In this document: positions 12,053-64,000 of the stretch, piece after piece
Layout of the letters: each line of letters opens with the position of its first letter
Position numbering within the stretch: the first letter of the stretch is position 1
Assembly: GCA_017442535.1 (NCBI GenBank)
Contig: JAFRZL010000030.1
Location: forward strand, 1 to 64,000
Source: Bacillota bacterium
Lineage (GTDB): Bacteria > Bacillota > Clostridia > Lachnospirales > Bianqueaceae
Reading direction: 5' to 3'
Length of the DNA stretch: 64,000 nucleotides
The notes under the pieces: model-generated
What the model was told of the DNA's origin: nothing
Databases searched by the model: none
Seen by the model: the letters and a program-made list of their open reading frames with translations, nothing else
Position numbers and translations under genes: made by a program

Positions 12053-13482
12053 AATCTTTTCTGCTGACAGGCCGCGAACTTGACGAGAGCAGACATTATG
12101 AATTATGCATGCTTGTCCGCGAATTCCTGCCCCTGGCGGAAATCATTACAGATGATACCGCTCCGGCGGACCTGCGCTTATGCTGGGACGGCGAAGCCTG
12201 GCATGCGGATACCGGAAACGGCTATGCGGACCGGGAAATGTCCGGAGAGGCTTCAGCTCTGGCCGCACTTGGCGGCGACCCTTTCAAAAACGAACTGAAG
12301 CGTTCGCTTTACAGACTGCTTGCCAGGCTGACGGGAATGCATATGCCCTGGGGGATCCTTACAGGTGTCCGCCCGACCAAATTAGCATGGCAGGCCATGA
12401 CGGCCGGCTATACGGCAGAGAGGCTGATTGACGCCCTCGTCCAGGAGTTTTATCTGGAGGGGAGCAAAGCGCGCAGGATGACGGAGATCGCCTGCCGCGA
12501 GCAGCAGCTCCTGGCAGATCATCTGCCCACAGATGTTTCGATCTATGCAGGGATTCCTTTCTGCCCGACGCGCTGTGCCTATTGTTCTTTTGTATCCTAT
12601 GATTATCACAGACTAGGCGACCTGATGGACCGGTACGTCGACACGCTTATTGCTGAAATACGGGAATGCGGGCGCATGATGCAGGGCAGACGCTTCAAGA
12701 GTTTTTATATGGGAGGCGGGACGCCTACGACCCTTTCTCCTGATGCGATGGACAGAGTGCTCAGCGCAGTGGAGGAGGCATTCGGAGAAATGTCCGAGAC
12801 GACAGTGGAGGCCGGACGCCCGGATACGATCACTTCCGAGAAGCTTCGCGTCCTGAAGCGCCACGGAATCGGTCGGATCTCGGTAAATCCCCAGACGATG
12901 AACGATGCAACCCTGGTCCGTATCGGCCGGAGGCATTCGGTGGAGGATATCCTCAGAGCCTTTGCCCTTGCCAGGGACGCGGGTTTCGACAATATCAACA
13001 TGGATTTGATCATGGGCTTGCCCGGGGAGACATCCGCCGACGCGGCTCATACACTGGAACGGATCATGGTTCTTGCTCCCGAGAGCCTGACCGTTCACAC
13101 ACTTGCCGTCAAGCGCTCTTCGCGGATCCGGGAACAGGGATTTGTCTCGGAGACGGGACCCGAAGAAATCAGGCAGATGCTGCGGCTCGCGGATGAAGCG
13201 GCTGACGCACTCGGCATGAAGCCCTATTATATGTACCGGCAGAAAAACATGGCCGGCAATTTTGAGAATACAGGTTATGCGGTTCCCGGAAAGGAGTGCC
13301 TGTACAATATCGAGATCATGGAAGAAAAGCAGTCGATCCTCGCCATGGGCGCGGGCGCTGTATCCAAATGCTACGAACCGGAGAAGGATCGTCTGACCCG
13401 GGTTCCCAATGTCAAGAATGTGGAAGAGTATCTGCGGCGCATAGATGAGATGCTGGAGCGCAAGAGAAGGAGGTTTGTCTAA
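12040..13482 (+). CDS. hemZ: Coproporphyrinogen dehydrogenase HemZ-like radical SAM protein
   Basis: 480 residues. The radical SAM cluster motif C175-x3-C179-x2-C182 lies in GIPFCPTRCAYCSF, and YMGGGTPTTL follows. The preceding region of about 165 residues with WGILTGVRPTK is characteristic of the HemZ branch of the HemN/HemW-like proteins. The family is linked to oxygen-independent haem synthesis, although some HemN relatives are haem chaperones. A GTG at 12040 with GGAGGGAGG upstream is the best start. ATG 12046 is an alternative. It is the fourth gene of the rel-dtd-MBL-hemZ set, an order common in Clostridia. Confidence 0.88.
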   Translation: MEMVKSFLLTGRELDESRHYELCMLVREFLPLAEIITDDTAPADLRLCWDGEAWHADTGNGYADREMSGEASALAALGGDPFKNELKRSLYRLLARLTGMHMPWGILTGVRPTKLAWQAMTAGYTAERLIDALVQEFYLEGSKARRMTEIACREQQLLADHLPTDVSIYAGIPFCPTRCAYCSFVSYDYHRLGDLMDRYVDTLIAEIRECGRMMQGRRFKSFYMGGGTPTTLSPDAMDRVLSAVEEAFGEMSETTVEAGRPDTITSEKLRVLKRHGIGRISVNPQTMNDATLVRIGRRHSVEDILRAFALARDAGFDNINMDLIMGLPGETSADAAHTLERIMVLAPESLTVHTLAVKRSSRIREQGFVSETGPEEIRQMLRLADEAADALGMKPYYMYRQKNMAGNFENTGYAVPGKECLYNIEIMEEKQSILAMGAGAVSKCYEPEKDRLTRVPNVKNVEEYLRRIDEMLERKRRRFV

Positions 13483-14370
13483 ATGACCAAACAGGAGTTT
13501 TACCAAACCATCAATGAGCGTGAGCTTGGCCTCGGAGAAATCCTTAAGACCTCTGCGGGGATCTTTTTTGAAAACCTTCAGACATGGCTGCTGCTGTCGC
13601 TGATCGTTTTTCTGCCTACCGGGATCGTACTGCAGTATCTGATGCTGCAGATACCAGTCGAAGAGATCGTCAAGGCATACATGTCCGCGGATCTGGAGCA
13701 GCTGCGCCAGGTGAACTGGAATCCGGTCTGGATCTTTTTCGGCGCGACGCTGGCGTTCAACCTTATCAATGTGATCGCGAGCCTTGCGGCGAGCACCTAC
13801 ACGGATCACTGGCTGCGCGACGATCTGCCTTCCTTTGGAGGATTATTTCGGGAGACCATCCGCAAATGGCCCCGGGGAATCCTGATCGTGATCTGGCAGA
13901 TGCTGATGTGCTTAGGCATTGTGGTGATGGCTGTCCTTAGCGTGGGCTTCTTCCTGCTGCCCGGCATGCTGCTGGTGCTGGCGATTTCTATTCTTTATCA
14001 GTATGCGGTGGTGGCAACAGCGGTCCATGGGCATAAAGGTTTTAGCGCCTACGGATATGCGTTTGAGATTTGCCGCAGGCGGATCGGCAAGAGCCTGACC
14101 CTGGTACTGATCATGATGGTGATCAACGCTCTTTTTTCCAGCGTACTGACTTCGATCACATCATCATTCATCGTATTGGAAAACAGAACGCTGCTGTACT
14201 GCGTTGTACTCGGACTGATCAATGTGATCGCCAATCTGACCACTTTCCTGCTGTCGATCGGAGCGACGCTGCATCTGCTTAATCTCGAATATTTGTCCGG
14301 ACCGCATCCCACGGATACTCCCGCGGCGCCCGAGGTCCGCGAGATCCCCAATACGATCGATATTCCCTAG
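13483..14370 (+). CDS. Integral membrane protein of unknown function
   Basis: Not recognised as a named family. About six TM segments are visible, near residues 34-54, 83-104, 133-157, 160-180, 203-228 and 238-264, in a 295-residue protein with a hydrophilic N-terminus and a Pro/Glu-rich tail. It resembles multi-TM proteins of the glycerophosphoryl-diester-phosphodiesterase membrane-domain or DUF975 type, but this is only a general likeness. It starts one base after the hemZ stop with AAGGAGG in the hemZ 3' end, so it is the last gene of that unit. Confidence 0.75.
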   Translation: MTKQEFYQTINERELGLGEILKTSAGIFFENLQTWLLLSLIVFLPTGIVLQYLMLQIPVEEIVKAYMSADLEQLRQVNWNPVWIFFGATLAFNLINVIASLAASTYTDHWLRDDLPSFGGLFRETIRKWPRGILIVIWQMLMCLGIVVMAVLSVGFFLLPGMLLVLAISILYQYAVVATAVHGHKGFSAYGYAFEICRRRIGKSLTLVLIMMVINALFSSVLTSITSSFIVLENRTLLYCVVLGLINVIANLTTFLLSIGATLHLLNLEYLSGPHPTDTPAAPEVREIPNTIDIP

Positions 14371-45819: not shown

Positions 45820-46338
45820 ATGAATATTCCTTTGAATATTGACTTCCAGCAGATCCTGCTGCATATCTTCAACTTCATCCTGCTGGCTGGCGGATTGTAT
45901 TTCATCCTCTACAAACCTGTCAGAAAATGGATGGACGCAAGAGAAGCTTCGTATCAGCAGAAGCGTGAGGAGACCGAACGGCTGCTGTCTGAAGCGCAGA
46001 CGATCAAGGAAGAATACACACAGAAGATGGCCGCGTCGGATGAGGAGATCGCTGCCAGAAAAGCTTCTGCCGAGCAGCACATCCTTCAGATCACCGAGGA
46101 CTGCAACCAGCAGCTGAAGGAACGTGAAGAAGCCATGCTTGCCGATGCGCGCAAGCAGGCCCAGGAGGAGCATGACAAACTGATTTATGATGCGCGTCAC
46201 GAGATCGCCGAGATGGTCGGCATGGCGGCCGAGAGACTGATGGTCGGCTCGGTATCGCAGGCATATGATCAGTTCCTGGATAACGCAGAATCGTTAGAAG
46301 CATCCGGAAAGGAGCAGACCGATGAGTCCGCTCGGTAA
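45820..46338 (+). CDS. atpF: ATP synthase F0 subunit b
   Basis: 172 residues. One N-terminal TM segment (about 10-29) is followed by a long, charged coiled-coil helix that forms the outer stalk, and a C-terminal end ([22 protein letters not shown]) that should contact the delta-like region. The protein is of normal length, with nothing resembling the delta N-terminal domain attached at its C-terminus. It overlaps atpA by 17 bases. Confidence 0.92.
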
Positions 46339-48070
46339 AGAGAGAGCGGTCCTGGTCTCGGCCGAACCGCCCACTTCAGAACAGAAAACCCGGTTCACAG
46401 CGTTCTTAAAGAAAAAATACCTGAATGATTTTGAACTGATCTGGCAGCAGAAAGAGTCGATCCAGAACGGTTTTATTCTCTATGTCCGCTCCGAGATCTA
46501 TGACTGGAGTACGGAAGGCCGGCTGCGTCAGGTGACGGACCGGATGAATGAACTGGTGCTGATGGACAAGCCCCTGATCCCGCTGATTCGTGAGACACTC
46601 TCCCATTGGCAGACTGCCATCATTCCGCTCGAAATCGGTGAGGTGGAATCGGTTGGCGACGGGATCGCCTTTATCGCAGGGCTCAACCAGGTCGCCTATG
46701 GCGAGATCCTGGTGTTCCAGAACGGTGTGCGGGGCATGGTGCAGGAGCTTCAGCCCGACCACATCGGCTGCATTCTCTTCGGGGACGATGAGGAGATCCT
46801 TGAGGGCAGCATGGTGTACCGCACGGGTAAAGTTGCCGGGATGCCTGTCGGAGACGCTTATCTGGGGCGTGTTGTTGATGCACTGGGTGCCCCGATCGAC
46901 CGGCGGGGCCCGATCCATTCCGAAGAGATTCGGCCCATTGAGAATCCCGCGCCGGGCATCATCAGCCGCGCTCCGGTCAGTCGGCCCCTCCAAACAGGGA
47001 TTCTTGCGATTGACTCGATGTTCCCGATCGGACGCGGTCAGCGTGAACTGATCATCGGTGACCGACAGACCGGCAAAACGGCGATCGCCATCGACACCAT
47101 TCTCAATCAGAAAGGCAAGGATGTTATCTGCATCTATGCCGCGATCGGGCAGAAAAACAGCTCCACGGCCCAGCTGGTGGAGCAGCTTCGTGTGCGCGGA
47201 GCCATGGAGTATACGATCGTGGTCAACGCTTCTGCCGGAGAACCTGCTCCGCTGCAGTTTATCGCTCCTTACGCGGCTTGTGCGCTGGGAGAATACTTCA
47301 TGAATAAGGGCCGCGATGTGCTGATCATTTACGATGATTTGTCCAAACACGCCATTGCATACCGTTCGATCAGCCTGCTGCTCGAGCGCTCGCCGGGGCG
47401 TGAAGCCTATCCGGGCGACGTCTTTTATCTGCATTCCCGGCTGCTGGAACGATCCGCTCAGCTGTCCAAAGCGATGGGCGGAGGCAGCATGACAGCGCTT
47501 CCCATTGTCGAAACGCTTGCGGGCGATGTATCCGCTTATATTCCGACCAATATTATCTCGATCACGGATGGACAGATTTTCCTGGAAAGCGACCTGTTCG
47601 CAGCCGGCCAGAGGCCTGCTATCAACGTGGGCTTATCGGTCTCCCGTGTCGGTGGCGCCGCGCAGTATAAAGGCATCAAAAAAGCAAGCGGTACGATCCG
47701 CCTGGATCTGGCCCAGTATCGCGAAATGGAAGTCTTTAATCAGTTCGCCAGCGATCTGGATGAAACGACCAAACAGCAGCTCCTATATGGCCAGGGACTG
47801 ATGCAGATGCTGAAACAGGGCCGCATGAAACCATGGGAAGCCGAAGAGCAGATGATCCTGCTCCTGGTTATGCTGCATAAGGTTGCGTCGGTGCTGCAGC
47901 CCGAGGAACTGAAAACCTGGATCCCGGCAATGATCGGGGATATAAAAGAAAAACTTCCCGAAGTGGTTTCCGGCATCGCGCAGAGGAAAGACTACACTGA
48001 GGAAGAGATGGCAAGCATCATCGACAGGGCATCACAGTTCCTTGAGGAGTGGAAAGCCCGGGAGAACTGA
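46322..48070 (+). CDS. atpA: ATP synthase F1 subunit alpha with an N-terminal delta C-terminal-domain-like extension
   Basis: 582 residues, about 75-80 more than normal. The alpha part starts near residue 81 and is complete: [11 protein letters not shown], Walker [20 protein letters not shown], and VSRVGGAAQ with the arginine finger. Residues about 8-78 resemble the C-terminal domain of the delta subunit: [34 protein letters not shown] and TEGRLRQV correspond to the delta blocks V.SA.PLT..Q, D.SLIGG..V and D.S..GRL. No separate delta gene occurs between atpF and atpA, its normal place. ATG 46322 has AAAGGAG seven bases upstream. Internal ATGs at 46544 and 46562 lack a good Shine-Dalgarno. Confidence 0.9.
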
Positions 48071-58377: not shown

Positions 58378-60375
58378 ATGGAGAATCTGCTGATTAAGGA
58401 CTGGAATCTGCTTCGCTCGGAACGGTTTGACGTACGCGCGCAGGCTTTCCGCCGGCTGGCTGACCAGTGCAGGCGGTATGAAAAGGAGATCCTTCCTGCC
58501 GAACATCCGCTGAAAAGCATTACCTATTATGGCATGGCAGCCCTGAACCTGGCACTGATGTACAGACTCACCAATCAGAAATATTATCTCTCGTCTGCCA
58601 GACGCTGGATCTTTGCCGGTGTTCAGTACCCTCACTGGGGTAAAGCCGTCAAGGTGGACGTGGATCTGAGTGCTTCATGGCTTTTGCTCGGCTACGGCAT
58701 CGCGTATGACTGGCTGAAAAACGATTTGGAGCCCGCGGACCGCCAGGACCTGCTTGAAAAACTGATTCTCCAGGGTGAACGCATGTATGCCTACGCCTGC
58801 GCCACGGATGGAGCCCATCCGGTCGATCAGAAGCGGATCAGTCAGGCCGAAGCCGGCGCCAAAGATGTGCTGACCGGTCGTTCCTGGGCCACTACTTACT
58901 GGCAGAATCATAACTGGATCAATATGACCGGCCTTTACGCGGCGGCACTCGCGATCCGCGACCAGTATTCGCCGGCGGAGGAGTGGATCCGGTATGTTCA
59001 GAACAATTTTGAAAAAGTATTCCCCCTGCTGCCCGAAGACGGCAGTGATTACGAAGGCGTGGTCTACTGGCGCTACGGCGTGATCTTTCTGTTCCTGTAC
59101 GCGGAACTGGAAAGGGAGCATACCGGACGCGATCGTTTCCGGGAAAGCGATTTCCTGAAGAACACCTTCTTCTACCGACTGTATCAGCTTGGACCTGACC
59201 GTGAGCAGAACTTCAATTTCGGCGACTGCCATGACCGAAAAAGCGGACATATTCCATGCCTGTACCGCAAAGTCGCTTCGGAATACCGGAACGGTTATGC
59301 GCAGATGCTCGCACGTGAAGTGCTGGAGCATTCGCTGATGGGAGAAGGATATGAGAGCGGCGTCAAGCCGGGAATCCTGCCCGAGGCCTGCCTGGAATAT
59401 ATCTGGTATGATCCCGAAGTAAAGGAAAAGCCCTTGGAAGAGCTGGAAACCTCACACTATTTTGCGGATCTGGGGCTGTTCTCCTGGCGCAGCGGCTGGG
59501 ACCGCGAAGCCATCGCGTTCTCCTTTAAGTGCGCACCGGGCGGCGGCCACAAACAGTGGGAGCTTGCCCATGCGATGGAAAAGGAAACGGGTCTGGCCAT
59601 CCGTTCCATGGGACATCATCATCCGGATGCGAATCATTTCATGCTGCTGAGAGGCAGTGATTTCCTGGCGGTTGACGAGGGCTATTCCGCCCATAAGATG
59701 GCCCGCAATCATAATCTGATACTGGTCGACGGCAAAGGGTTTACCGGGGACGGAGCCTATGATGTCTACCGGGATATGACTCATTCCCAACAGGGACGGA
59801 TCCTGGCCTACGAGCCGCACGGCAAAGGCTTTTACCTCTGCGGTTCCTCCGCATCGCTCTATGACAAGTCGCTGGGGGTGAAATCCATGCGTCGCGAGAT
59901 CCTCTCCGCGGGTACCGGCTGGTTCCTGATTCTGGATAGTATGTGCGCCGATGCGCCCCGCACCTGGACCTGGCTGCTGCATATGGATCAGCCGGCGCAG
60001 CGCCTGGGAGATCATTACAGGCTGGAGATCGCCGGATCCGCGATGGAAGTCTATATGGGTGATCCGGAGCTGCGTTTCGGATCGACATTGATGGAAAACA
60101 GCGCGAACGTAACGAGCCAGGAGCCGGACAATATCGTTTACACCAGGCTCTTTACCATTTGCCAGGAGAACAAGATGCCGGCCGGAGCCATGCGTTTCTG
60201 TACGCTGATCACGGCAGGATCCGCACGGGAAGGGGCACTGCCCACAGTATCCAATGTGCAGACAGAGGACGGATGGACCGTCCGCGTCGGGGAGGATGAG
60301 ATCATCATCCGCGGCGATGAACGAATTCTTATGACCACGCGGGAGCAGTGGGTGATGAATGCTCCCTCAGAATAA
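58378..60375 (+). CDS. Heparinase II/III family protein (polysaccharide lyase) B
   Basis: 665 residues. The N-terminal helical toroid includes QNHNWINMTGLYAAALAI and DGSDYEGVVYWRYGVIFLF, with the Asn-His, Tyr and Arg residues expected in alginate-lyase/heparinase-type active sites. The C-terminal sheet domain has GHHHPDANHFMLLRGSDFLAVDEGY. It is similar in plan to the preceding gene, but too different to be a recent duplicate. No signal peptide is seen. GAAAGGAG lies in the end of the upstream gene, so the two are translated together. Confidence 0.85.
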   Translation: MENLLIKDWNLLRSERFDVRAQAFRRLADQCRRYEKEILPAEHPLKSITYYGMAALNLALMYRLTNQKYYLSSARRWIFAGVQYPHWGKAVKVDVDLSASWLLLGYGIAYDWLKNDLEPADRQDLLEKLILQGERMYAYACATDGAHPVDQKRISQAEAGAKDVLTGRSWATTYWQNHNWINMTGLYAAALAIRDQYSPAEEWIRYVQNNFEKVFPLLPEDGSDYEGVVYWRYGVIFLFLYAELEREHTGRDRFRESDFLKNTFFYRLYQLGPDREQNFNFGDCHDRKSGHIPCLYRKVASEYRNGYAQMLAREVLEHSLMGEGYESGVKPGILPEACLEYIWYDPEVKEKPLEELETSHYFADLGLFSWRSGWDREAIAFSFKCAPGGGHKQWELAHAMEKETGLAIRSMGHHHPDANHFMLLRGSDFLAVDEGYSAHKMARNHNLILVDGKGFTGDGAYDVYRDMTHSQQGRILAYEPHGKGFYLCGSSASLYDKSLGVKSMRREILSAGTGWFLILDSMCADAPRTWTWLLHMDQPAQRLGDHYRLEIAGSAMEVYMGDPELRFGSTLMENSANVTSQEPDNIVYTRLFTICQENKMPAGAMRFCTLITAGSAREGALPTVSNVQTEDGWTVRVGEDEIIIRGDERILMTTREQWVMNAPSE

Positions 60376-60398
60376 AATCCATTCAGGAGGTATTTAGA

Positions 60399-61151
60399 AT
60401 GAAAAAGGTATTACTGATCACGGGTGCCGCGAGCGGCATCGGCCGCTGCACCTGCAAGACTTTCGGCCAGAACGGGTATGCGGTTGCTTTTAATGACTAT
60501 AATGTGGAAAATGGCGAGAAGCTGCTGGCTGAGCTGACGGAAGCCGGCGTCGAAGCGGCTTTCTATCCCGGCGATATCACAAACGAAGCATTTGTCAATG
60601 AATTCGTGAAACAGGCAGTCGAGCGTTTCGGACGTCTGGATGTTGTGATCAACAATGCCGGCGGACTCGGCGGCCGCAGCAAAATCGATGAGATGACGAC
60701 GGAATTCTACAATCATGTCATGGACCTGAATATGACCAGTGCTTTCTACGTCACCCGCGCCACGGTACCCGCTCTGAAAGCGGCAGGTGCTGAGACCGGG
60801 AATGCTTCCCTGATCAACATCACTTCGATCGCGGCTTACAACGGCGGCGGCCCCGGCGCTTCGATCTACGCGGCTTCCAAGGCGGCTGTGCTTGGCTGGT
60901 CCAAGGGCCTTGCCAAGGAACTGGTCGGATTCGGTATCCGTGTCAATCTGATTAGCCCGGGAACCATCGACACGCCTTTCCACAGCGCCACTGCACGTGA
61001 GATCGTCGAATCCTGGAAGAAGGGCATTCCTGCCGGCCGCCTCGGTGATCCTCAGGAAGTAGCCAATGTTCTGGAATTCCTTGCGAGTGAAAAAGCCAGC
61101 TATCTCGTAGGCGAAGTCATCCAGATCAACGGCGGACAGATGATGGATTAA
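60399..61151 (+). CDS. Short-chain dehydrogenase/reductase
   Basis: 250 residues from ATG 60399, preceded by CAGGAGGT. Classical SDR motifs: TGAASGIG at 8-15, NNAG at 85-88, S143, YAASK with Y157 and K161. The enzyme could reduce an unsaturated uronate-derived 5-keto or 2-keto sugar acid, as KduD or DEH reductases do in pectin and alginate breakdown. This role is inferred only from the two lyase-type neighbours. It ends the operon; a promoter-containing hairpin follows. Confidence 0.87.
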   Translation: MKKVLLITGAASGIGRCTCKTFGQNGYAVAFNDYNVENGEKLLAELTEAGVEAAFYPGDITNEAFVNEFVKQAVERFGRLDVVINNAGGLGGRSKIDEMTTEFYNHVMDLNMTSAFYVTRATVPALKAAGAETGNASLINITSIAAYNGGGPGASIYAASKAAVLGWSKGLAKELVGFGIRVNLISPGTIDTPFHSATAREIVESWKKGIPAGRLGDPQEVANVLEFLASEKASYLVGEVIQINGGQMMD

Positions 61152-61269: not shown

Positions 61270-61298
61270 ATACCTGTTCGATACATGGAGGGCGGATC

Positions 61299-62726
61299 AT
61301 GATCAATTTGTTTCATAAAAAGTTGTTCCGCAGATTCTTCTGGACATACATTCTGGTGTTAATGCTGCCGGTATTGATTATCGGTATTTTTTCGATTCAA
61401 TATAATACTTCTGTCATGAAGCAGAACAGCAGGGAGTCCAGGAAGGAGAGTACTCTGCGTACAGCCAAACTGCTCGATCGTGAGTTTTCCGAATTGCAGG
61501 AGATCGCGATTCAGATCGGTCAGGATCAGGATATCCGCAAAGTCATGTTTGAGAATGATACGGTCGAATGGGAGTACGCGAGATGGAGAGCGCTCTCACA
61601 GCTTTTGAAGATCAACGCAGCCAAGAAATATCCCGACGAGATCATGGTTTATTTTTCGAGGACCAAGGAATTCCTGAACGCTTCCAGCTATTACGATATT
61701 GATCTGTTTTACCAACGTTACCCGCTGGATCAGTTCGACAAAGAAGAGTTCCTGAACTGGATCGAGCACCAGGACGGATCTTATACCCATGTTTCTACAC
61801 ATGATGGGAAACTGCATTATCTGCTGTATACGCGCGGCATTCCGATCCTTGGGGGTACCTCTCAGGGAGTGGTTTTGATGATGATCGACTGGGAAAAGAT
61901 TGCCTCGATGTTCTCTAACGATATGCTCAGCAGCGAAAGATCGATCGAAAGCATTATCGGCTTTGACGGGCAGATTCTGTATCGCTCAGAAAACAGTTTC
62001 CGGGAAGAGACTTCGGTATTTCTGCAGAATCAGGTATTCAGAAAAGGGGAGCGCTCCTATGAAGAATACATTAACGGGACGAAATACCTGGTTACCACGG
62101 AACTATCAGCTGAATTTCCTGTGATCTACGTGACGGCAGGAGCTTTCCGGGATCTGCTGTTTGGTGTACGCACCCTGTGGCTGAACCTTTTTGTGGCCCT
62201 GTTTTTCTGCCTGCTGTTCGGAGGCCTGCTGATTTTCTTCTTCTCCAGGTATAATTTCCGCCCGATCTACAACCTGTTTGAGTATGCGGAATCCGGCGAC
62301 CGCAAAAAGCAGAGCCATGCCTATGACGGACTGTCGCAGGTGGTGGACCGGCTCGAGAATCTGTTTGACCAGAATCAGAAATTGGAACAGTCGCTGGAGC
62401 AGCAGCTTCCCAGCATGAGGTACAGCTTTGTTAACAACCTGCTGGAAGGTCTGTATCCGGACGGCGAAGATCTGTCCTCGCTGGAGGATCTCTATCAGGT
62501 CAGCTTTGAATCGGATCTGTTCGCAGTGGTCATCCTCAGCATCGATGATTTATCGGAATTCGCCGGCAATAATGACGAGAAATCGCTCAACCTGATTCAT
62601 TTTGCGGCGACTAATGTGTTCAACGAAGTCATGTCCGATATCGCTTCAGTCCTGAAAACGACGAAACGCAAGCGAGCCTCGTATATTCTTTGCTTCCACA
62701 ATGACGTGCTGGATCCTCGTGCCTAG
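61299..62726 (+). CDS. AraC-type membrane regulator, N-terminal part (ends at an in-frame TAG)
   Basis: 475 residues. TM1 at about 14-32, an extracytoplasmic sensor-like region (residues about 35-285, Cache-like in layout), TM2 at about 286-310 (TLWLNLFVALFFCLLFGGLLIFFF, partly), then a cytoplasmic linker. The protein ends abruptly at TAG 62724-62726. The next codon is ATG in the same frame, and the rest of a typical membrane AraC regulator follows. The whole would be 768 codons, normal for this type. GGAGGGCGG precedes the start. It is either a broken gene, a split gene, or read through. Confidence 0.85.
   Translation: MINLFHKKLFRRFFWTYILVLMLPVLIIGIFSIQYNTSVMKQNSRESRKESTLRTAKLLDREFSELQEIAIQIGQDQDIRKVMFENDTVEWEYARWRALSQLLKINAAKKYPDEIMVYFSRTKEFLNASSYYDIDLFYQRYPLDQFDKEEFLNWIEHQDGSYTHVSTHDGKLHYLLYTRGIPILGGTSQGVVLMMIDWEKIASMFSNDMLSSERSIESIIGFDGQILYRSENSFREETSVFLQNQVFRKGERSYEEYINGTKYLVTTELSAEFPVIYVTAGAFRDLLFGVRTLWLNLFVALFFCLLFGGLLIFFFSRYNFRPIYNLFEYAESGDRKKQSHAYDGLSQVVDRLENLFDQNQKLEQSLEQQLPSMRYSFVNNLLEGLYPDGEDLSSLEDLYQVSFESDLFAVVILSIDDLSEFAGNNDEKSLNLIHFAATNVFNEVMSDIASVLKTTKRKRASYILCFHNDVLDPRA
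62724..62726 (+). other. In-frame amber codon splitting the AraC-type regulator
   Basis: GCC-TAG-ATG: the frame of 61299-62723 continues without shift into 62727-63605. A single C-to-T change of a CAG codon would explain it. TAG is a normal stop elsewhere in the window (for example after mtaB, the U32 gene, pulA and the MATE gene at 42881). Confidence 0.9.
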
Positions 62727-63605
62727 ATGGAGCGCCGGCTGGATCAGATACATGGCTTTATGACACAGACATTCAAGGTTAAGCTGAGCATCGGTGCCAG
62801 CGACATCGTCCAGGGGTTGGAAATGGTCCATGTCGGACAGGAACAGGCTGTTGTCGCATTGAATCAGCGCTTCCTCTACGGCATCGGCAATGTTTCCGTA
62901 TTCCACTCGGAGACGAATGAACGTAATTCCCAGTATTACTACCCGCTGGATAAAGAAACCCAGCTGGTGAACCACATCAAGCAGGGCGATAAAGAAGGCG
63001 CACATGAGATCCTCGATCATGTGATCGAAGAAAATCGGAAGAGGGAGATCTCTGTGCAGCTGTCCTACTGCATGATGTTTAACATGCTCGGAACGATCCT
63101 GAAAGTACTGAACGACCTGGGTATGGAATACGACATCTCCCAGCTGGTTTCCCAGATGCAGGAAGCGATGCTGCATCAGGGAGACAAAACAATGAGCCAG
63201 CTGCATCAGCAGATCCAGGGAGTCATTGACGATATCTGCGATCTGATCAACGCCAGCAAAGAGAGCGGCAATGTGCAGCTTAAGACGCATATACTGCATT
63301 ATCTGCAGGAGAATTATATGGATTCCAATCTGTCCCTCGTCTGGGTGGCGGATCAGTTCCATCTGTCCGGACCGTACCTCAGCCGCTATTTCAAAGATCA
63401 GATGGGCATGAATTTTGCGGATTATCTGTGCCGGATCCGTATCAATAAAGCCAAAGAGCTGCTTCGTAATCCAGCCCTGTCGATCAACGATATTTCGACT
63501 ATGGTCGGGTATAATTCCAGCAACTCGTTTATCCGTACTTTCAAGCGTTATGAGTCCATTACGCCCGGTCAGTACCGTGAGCAGATGGGCCATATCAATG
63601 GGTGA
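62727..63605 (+). CDS. AraC-type regulator, C-terminal part with DNA-binding domain
   Basis: 292 residues in the same frame as the upstream part. The first 180 residues are a cytoplasmic middle domain. The C-terminal 100 residues form an AraC/XylS double helix-turn-helix: LSLVWVADQFHLSGPYLSRYFKDQMGMNFADYL, then INKAKELL, SINDISTMVGYNSSNSFIRTFKRYESITPGQYR (short parts identify the family). It would activate the neighbouring transport genes. ATG 62727 directly follows the stop; no convincing Shine-Dalgarno is visible, so translation would depend on reinitiation. Confidence 0.85.
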   Translation: MERRLDQIHGFMTQTFKVKLSIGASDIVQGLEMVHVGQEQAVVALNQRFLYGIGNVSVFHSETNERNSQYYYPLDKETQLVNHIKQGDKEGAHEILDHVIEENRKREISVQLSYCMMFNMLGTILKVLNDLGMEYDISQLVSQMQEAMLHQGDKTMSQLHQQIQGVIDDICDLINASKESGNVQLKTHILHYLQENYMDSNLSLVWVADQFHLSGPYLSRYFKDQMGMNFADYLCRIRINKAKELLRNPALSINDISTMVGYNSSNSFIRTFKRYESITPGQYREQMGHING

Positions 63606-63699: not shown

Positions 63700-63791
63700 T
63701 GACCCATAAGATTTGCGGAGAGATCTGTTCAGAGTCCGGCTGACGGATGCAGGATCTTCCGCTTCAACACTATTTATTGGAGGTATGTATT

Positions 63792-64000
63792 ATGAAGAAG
63801 AGATCCATCCTCGCACTTGTGCTGGCTCTGATTCTGGCCGTCGGCGCTCTGGCCGGCTGCACAGGCTCCGACAGCAAATCCGGATCCAATTCCGGGTCAT
63901 CTGTGAATGAAGACCTCAAAAACCTGATCGGCAAGTACCCCATCGTTAAAAATGGTGAGCTGACCCTCAAGATCTGGTCCACCATGGGCGATACCATTGC
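63792..64000 (+). CDS. Extracellular solute-binding lipoprotein of an ABC sugar transporter (partial, runs off the window)
   Basis: The first 69 residues are visible and the frame is open to the window end. MKKRSILALV, a hydrophobic core and lipobox ALAGC (C23) form a lipoprotein signal. A Ser/Gly-rich linker follows, then NGELTLKIWSTMG, the first strand of a family 1 (LplA/MalE-like) sugar-binding protein. TTGGAGG is nine bases before the ATG. An AraC-type membrane regulator followed by such a lipoprotein is the common arrangement of carbohydrate uptake operons in Clostridia and Paenibacillus. The permease genes should lie beyond the window. Confidence 0.85.
   Translation, partial: MKKRSILALVLALILAVGALAGCTGSDSKSGSNSGSSVNEDLKNLIGKYPIVKNGELTLKIWSTMGDTI

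Follow-up and report, generated by a model that had tools for sequence, protein, structure and literature searches.

This locus raises the question of why a single TAG codon followed directly by ATG stands in the middle of an otherwise open gene for a putative membrane regulator. The gene could have been broken by an ordinary nonsense mutation, the stop could be a fault of the draft assembly, the protein could be split functionally by translational restart, or TAG could be read as an amino acid. Within the window, by which we mean the whole stretch of 64,000 nucleotides analysed, the frame occupies positions 61299–63605 of the forward strand, and its 769 codons contain just two stop codons, a TAG at codon 476 (62724–62726) and a TGA at codon 769. 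The TAG is the only stop ahead of the natural end of the frame, and the ATG at 62727 abuts it with zero gap. The gene is preceded by a Shine–Dalgarno sequence, GGAGGG, at 61287–61292 of the same strand, with a duplex energy of -9.8 kcal/mol with the 16S rRNA tail.

The N-terminal part of the regulator (61299–62726, forward strand), which closes at the TAG, includes two hydrophobic segments, a putative dCache-like sensor and the first half of a GGDEF-like domain, and the C-terminal part (62727–63605, forward strand) includes the remainder of the GGDEF-like domain, a helical linker and an AraC-type DNA-binding domain. Codon usage scores both parts as coding, and their third-position GC contents, 0.62 and 0.66, are alike. 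Uninterrupted relatives, 759–766 amino acids in length, can be aligned with both parts in one and the same frame, so the continuity of the frame across the TAG is not a matter of chance. Translation and alignment thus agree with the initial annotation, which had described a single frame broken at TAG 62724 and continued by ATG.

Four full-length orthologs, comprising two named loci and two from genomes of the same family, share 48–52% identity with the regulator over the whole length, all without interruption. In the family, 3 of 19 genomes, including the genome studied, gave matches at 1e-60; a full-length ortholog was found in neither of the two same-genus genomes, and a search of 392 genomes of the order revealed no further one. 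The 391 genomes of the class yielded 14 distant homologs, located in 10 genomes besides the studied one. All 18 relatives, close and distant, are uninterrupted and carry a sense codon at the column of the stop. An interruption considered for the distant homologs L124 and L125 was rejected, since the listed TAA is where a 771-codon frame ends naturally. The residues at the stop column are Lys, Lys, Arg and Arg in the four close relatives and mixed in the distant ones, so that an origin of the TAG from a glutamine codon (CAG), implied earlier, is unsupported. The next column, occupied by Met in the studied genome, contains Met, Leu or Ile in 16 of the 18 relatives and Ala in the other two. Therefore, the ATG is a normal coding position whose presence calls for no particular explanation.

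The DNA-binding domain was recognised in the C-terminal part by PF12833 (HTH_18; E-values of 5.5e-23 and 2.1e-22; positions 63348–63584, forward strand) and PF00165 (E-value of 2.9e-14); its closest solved chains are YesN-like, and it is very well conserved in the alignment with the close relatives. Upstream of the TAG, two hydrophobic stretches noted on visual inspection represent putative membrane segments. A Foldseek search with the read-through model (pTM 0.34) retrieved dCache domains, among them 3lid and 6mni, with TM-scores by target of 0.54–0.64 for the best chains, and the Pfam dCache_1 family matched only the relative L061, with a score under its cut-off. The GGDEF-like family PF17853 matches L061 and L062 at residues 382–520; together with the predicted order of strands and helices, this places the corresponding domain of the interrupted gene at about residues 407–522 (62517–62864, forward strand). 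Because confidence in the full-length model is low, it was used solely for the local succession of secondary-structure elements near the TAG, which is predicted to be strand 407–417, helix 427–445, strands 449–456 and 459–466, helix 473–491, strand 495–500 and helix 507–522, with block means of pLDDT of 61–80 over residues 471–520. According to this prediction, codon 476 lies near the start of the second helix of the GGDEF-like domain, and so inside the domain. The initial annotation had assigned the sensor and the DNA-binding domain to opposite sides of the stop; this holds for the hydrophobic stretches before the TAG and HTH_18 after it, but the cut itself falls within the domain lying between them. 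Judging by its domain content, the gene probably encodes a one-component membrane regulator with a dCache-like sensor, a GGDEF-like domain and an AraC-type DNA-binding domain.

In this probable architecture, including HTH_18, the regulator resembles AraC/XylS-family membrane one-component regulators with a dCache sensor and a YesN-like DNA-binding domain, and the likeness extends to the GGDEF-like middle domain of the relatives and to neighbouring genes for a solute-binding protein and permeases. It differs from them in having the TAG inside the GGDEF-like domain and, since its frame is not uninterrupted, it was classed as an interrupted copy of a dCache–AraC regulator rather than as a working member of the group.

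The genes on both sides of the regulator are intact. Upstream, on the forward strand, the operon contains genes assigned with Pfam to a DUF4962/heparinase II/III-like enzyme (58378–60375), which has the same order in L061, and a short-chain dehydrogenase (60348–61151), which adjoins the regulator in L061, L063 and L064. Downstream, a gene for a solute-binding lipoprotein (L111), also present next to the relatives, starts at 63747 and runs on the forward strand to the window edge at 64000; beyond the edge it is intact, encoding 559 amino acids, and is followed by two intact permease genes. The operon is conserved. The order in L061 is heparinase/DUF4962-like enzyme, short-chain dehydrogenase, regulator, solute-binding lipoprotein and permease; L063 and L064 have the dehydrogenase, the regulator and the binding protein, with an enzyme gene ahead in L064, and in L062 the regulator and the binding protein were seen. 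From this gene context, the regulator probably senses a sugar or uronic-acid ligand and controls an operon of ABC transport and polysaccharide breakdown.

Taken together, it is likely that the gene for the membrane regulator of this operon is broken by one nonsense codon in the sampled genome. This reading is supported by the sole internal stop, the uninterrupted state of 18 of 18 relatives, the similar third-position GC and coding-like character of the two parts, and the intact flanking genes; a simple nonsense mutation, the first choice of the initial annotation, is the best-supported explanation, also in view of the cut inside the GGDEF-like domain. The locus resembles a nonsense pseudogene in having a lone in-frame stop in a gene that is intact apart from it and whose relatives are uninterrupted; the two same-genus genomes contain no full-length ortholog by which the stop could be dated or shown to be fixed. 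Normally, the extracytoplasmic dCache-like domain would sense a ligand, and the signal would pass through the second membrane segment to the GGDEF-like domain and on to the AraC domain, which would act on the operon. In the interrupted gene, translation would mainly yield a 475-residue membrane sensor devoid of a DNA-binding domain, and regulation by this protein would accordingly be lost or strongly reduced. The intact state of the remaining operon suggests that the mutation may be recent or present at the population level. Against the nonsense reading, the intact-looking DNA-binding domain in the C-terminal part would also fit retained function, and a search of the genome assembly revealed no release factor 1.

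The state of the assembly bears on a second explanation, namely that the TAG is a wrong consensus base or a minority variant, most cells having an uninterrupted gene. The genome is fragmented, with 52 contigs totalling 2.25 Mb (the window belongs to contig 10) and a completeness of 79.7%, and the uninterrupted relatives, the otherwise flawless gene and its intact operon are all compatible with such an artefact. On the other hand, an examination of other neighbouring in-frame ORF pairs in the same genome gave no sign that wrong stops are frequent, as none of 14 was spanned by one Pfam family. These were 10 pairs plus four separated by TAG; the latter remained from six TAG pairs picked initially, L090 and the wider-gap L103 pair having been left out of the repeat. 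Within the set, L104 gave no match, the match of L099 was confined to one side of the stop, and that of L088 was weak. A consensus artefact is thus a secondary possibility, to which we assign a rather low probability.

The abutting stop and start codons could also suggest that ribosomes terminate at the TAG and restart at the ATG, releasing a soluble, signal-independent AraC regulator and making the split functional, as the initial annotation had proposed. In having ATG directly after the stop, the locus is similar to termination–reinitiation coupled pairs; it differs from them in that the start has no Shine–Dalgarno sequence, one protein is split instead of two genes being joined, and none of the 18 relatives has such an arrangement. 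Coupled pairs benefit from a ribosome-binding site ahead of the second start, though they do not always need one. The duplex energy at ATG 62727, -3.1 kcal/mol, is the median (50th percentile) of the 1365 forward-strand ATGs of the window, and another in-frame ATG, at 62823, has a better energy, -6.0 kcal/mol, but lies 96 nt past the TAG. For comparison, a true zero-gap TAA-ATG junction between two ordinary genes at 13480–13485 has a perfect Shine–Dalgarno sequence and an energy of -12.5 kcal/mol. When the C-terminal part was modelled alone, the AraC domain was predicted fairly well (pLDDT blocks of 70–94 over residues 201–290), which would in principle allow a released fragment to bind DNA, but the beginning of the C-terminal part was predicted poorly, with pLDDT below 50 over residues 1–67 and block means of 29–40 for the first 50 residues. 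Classic work on translational restarts was reportedly done with lacI; it is given no evidential weight here.

Published data lend the restart some plausibility: in a study of E. coli, coupling is described as strongly distance-dependent, with a gap of 2 nt tolerated at a loss of 5–70% (PMC10666635), and a study of the archaeon Haloferax reports that removal of the Shine–Dalgarno sequence lowers reinitiation in most gene pairs without abolishing it (PMC6728339). Given the zero distance at the TAG-ATG, a weak, low-level restart is therefore possible, while a designed arrangement is unsupported. When ATG comes straight after a stop that separates a sensor from a DNA-binding domain, the layout gives an impression of design, and this impression calls for caution, since comparison with the relatives reveals an ATG that belongs to the old coding sequence and a cut inside a domain. 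With an ordinary coding ATG, no Shine–Dalgarno sequence and no relative split in this way, the proposal of a functional split finds little support and appears improbable. Even less probable is the more far-reaching version, according to which the TAG-ATG yields a membrane sensor plus a low level of a diffusing, constitutive AraC regulator, so that one codon change rewires control of the polysaccharide operon. If the C-terminal product were made, it would represent a one-step route from a membrane-tethered to a constitutive regulator.

Finally, the TAG could be read as an amino acid by means of a suppressor tRNA, pyrrolysine insertion or reassignment after loss of release factor 1. The 79.7% complete assembly yielded no release factor 1; the sole match is release factor 2, recognised by its SPF motif. 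Its gene is located outside the window, at C7:43336-44340 (L065). Incompleteness of the assembly, owing to which a suppressor could also be missed, is the simplest reason for the missing factor, since release factor 1 is present in 17 of the 19 family genomes (the studied one counted among the 19), including both same-genus genomes, and the other genome without it is only 66% complete. The region was also sought through its same-genus neighbours: the best match to the DUF1385 protein, 41% over part of its length on contig C9, is not close and has other neighbours, and the best match in the genome to the EF-G-like protein, a neighbour of release factor 1 in the same genus, is not close either. 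The release factor 1 region may be absent from the assembly.

As the search gave no release factor 1, the view of TAG as a stop codon in this genome depends on the ends of predicted genes and on comparison with the relatives. A purpose-written gene finder based on codon usage, applied to the window plus 400 kb, predicted 329 genes, of which 174 end with TAA, 125 with TGA and 30 with TAG, the interrupted regulator included; TAG thus closes 29 of the 328 other genes. None of the four other TAG-separated ORF pairs was spanned by one family. Among 39 tRNA places matched by the Rfam model in the assembly, with anticodons assigned by ARAGORN, none had a CTA anticodon, and the PylS matches, with 24.1 and 19.9 bits, were below the cut-off of 178.15. 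The locus differs in these respects from amber-decoded genes, as it does in having sense codons at the TAG column in all 18 relatives. The initial annotation, which regarded TAG as a normal stop and saw no pyrrolysine genes in the window, stands and now extends to the assembly, with the caveat concerning release factor 1. Decoding by pyrrolysine or a suppressor is unsupported after the searches for PylS, tRNAs and release factor 1, and reading of the TAG as an amino acid by any route is extremely improbable.

Two further genes of the window were noted for their domain compositions. The ATP synthase alpha subunit encoded at 46322–48070 has a C-terminal piece of the delta subunit (OSCP) fused to its N-terminus (OSCP at residues 6–75 of the fused protein, profile positions 102–172); this fused gene lies directly 3' of the b subunit gene, with no separate delta gene between them. 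At 329–1570, a single ORF combines an N-terminal GAF domain with an Asp/Glu racemase domain and, judging by these domains, resembles a fusion of a GAF-type reductase with a glutamate racemase.
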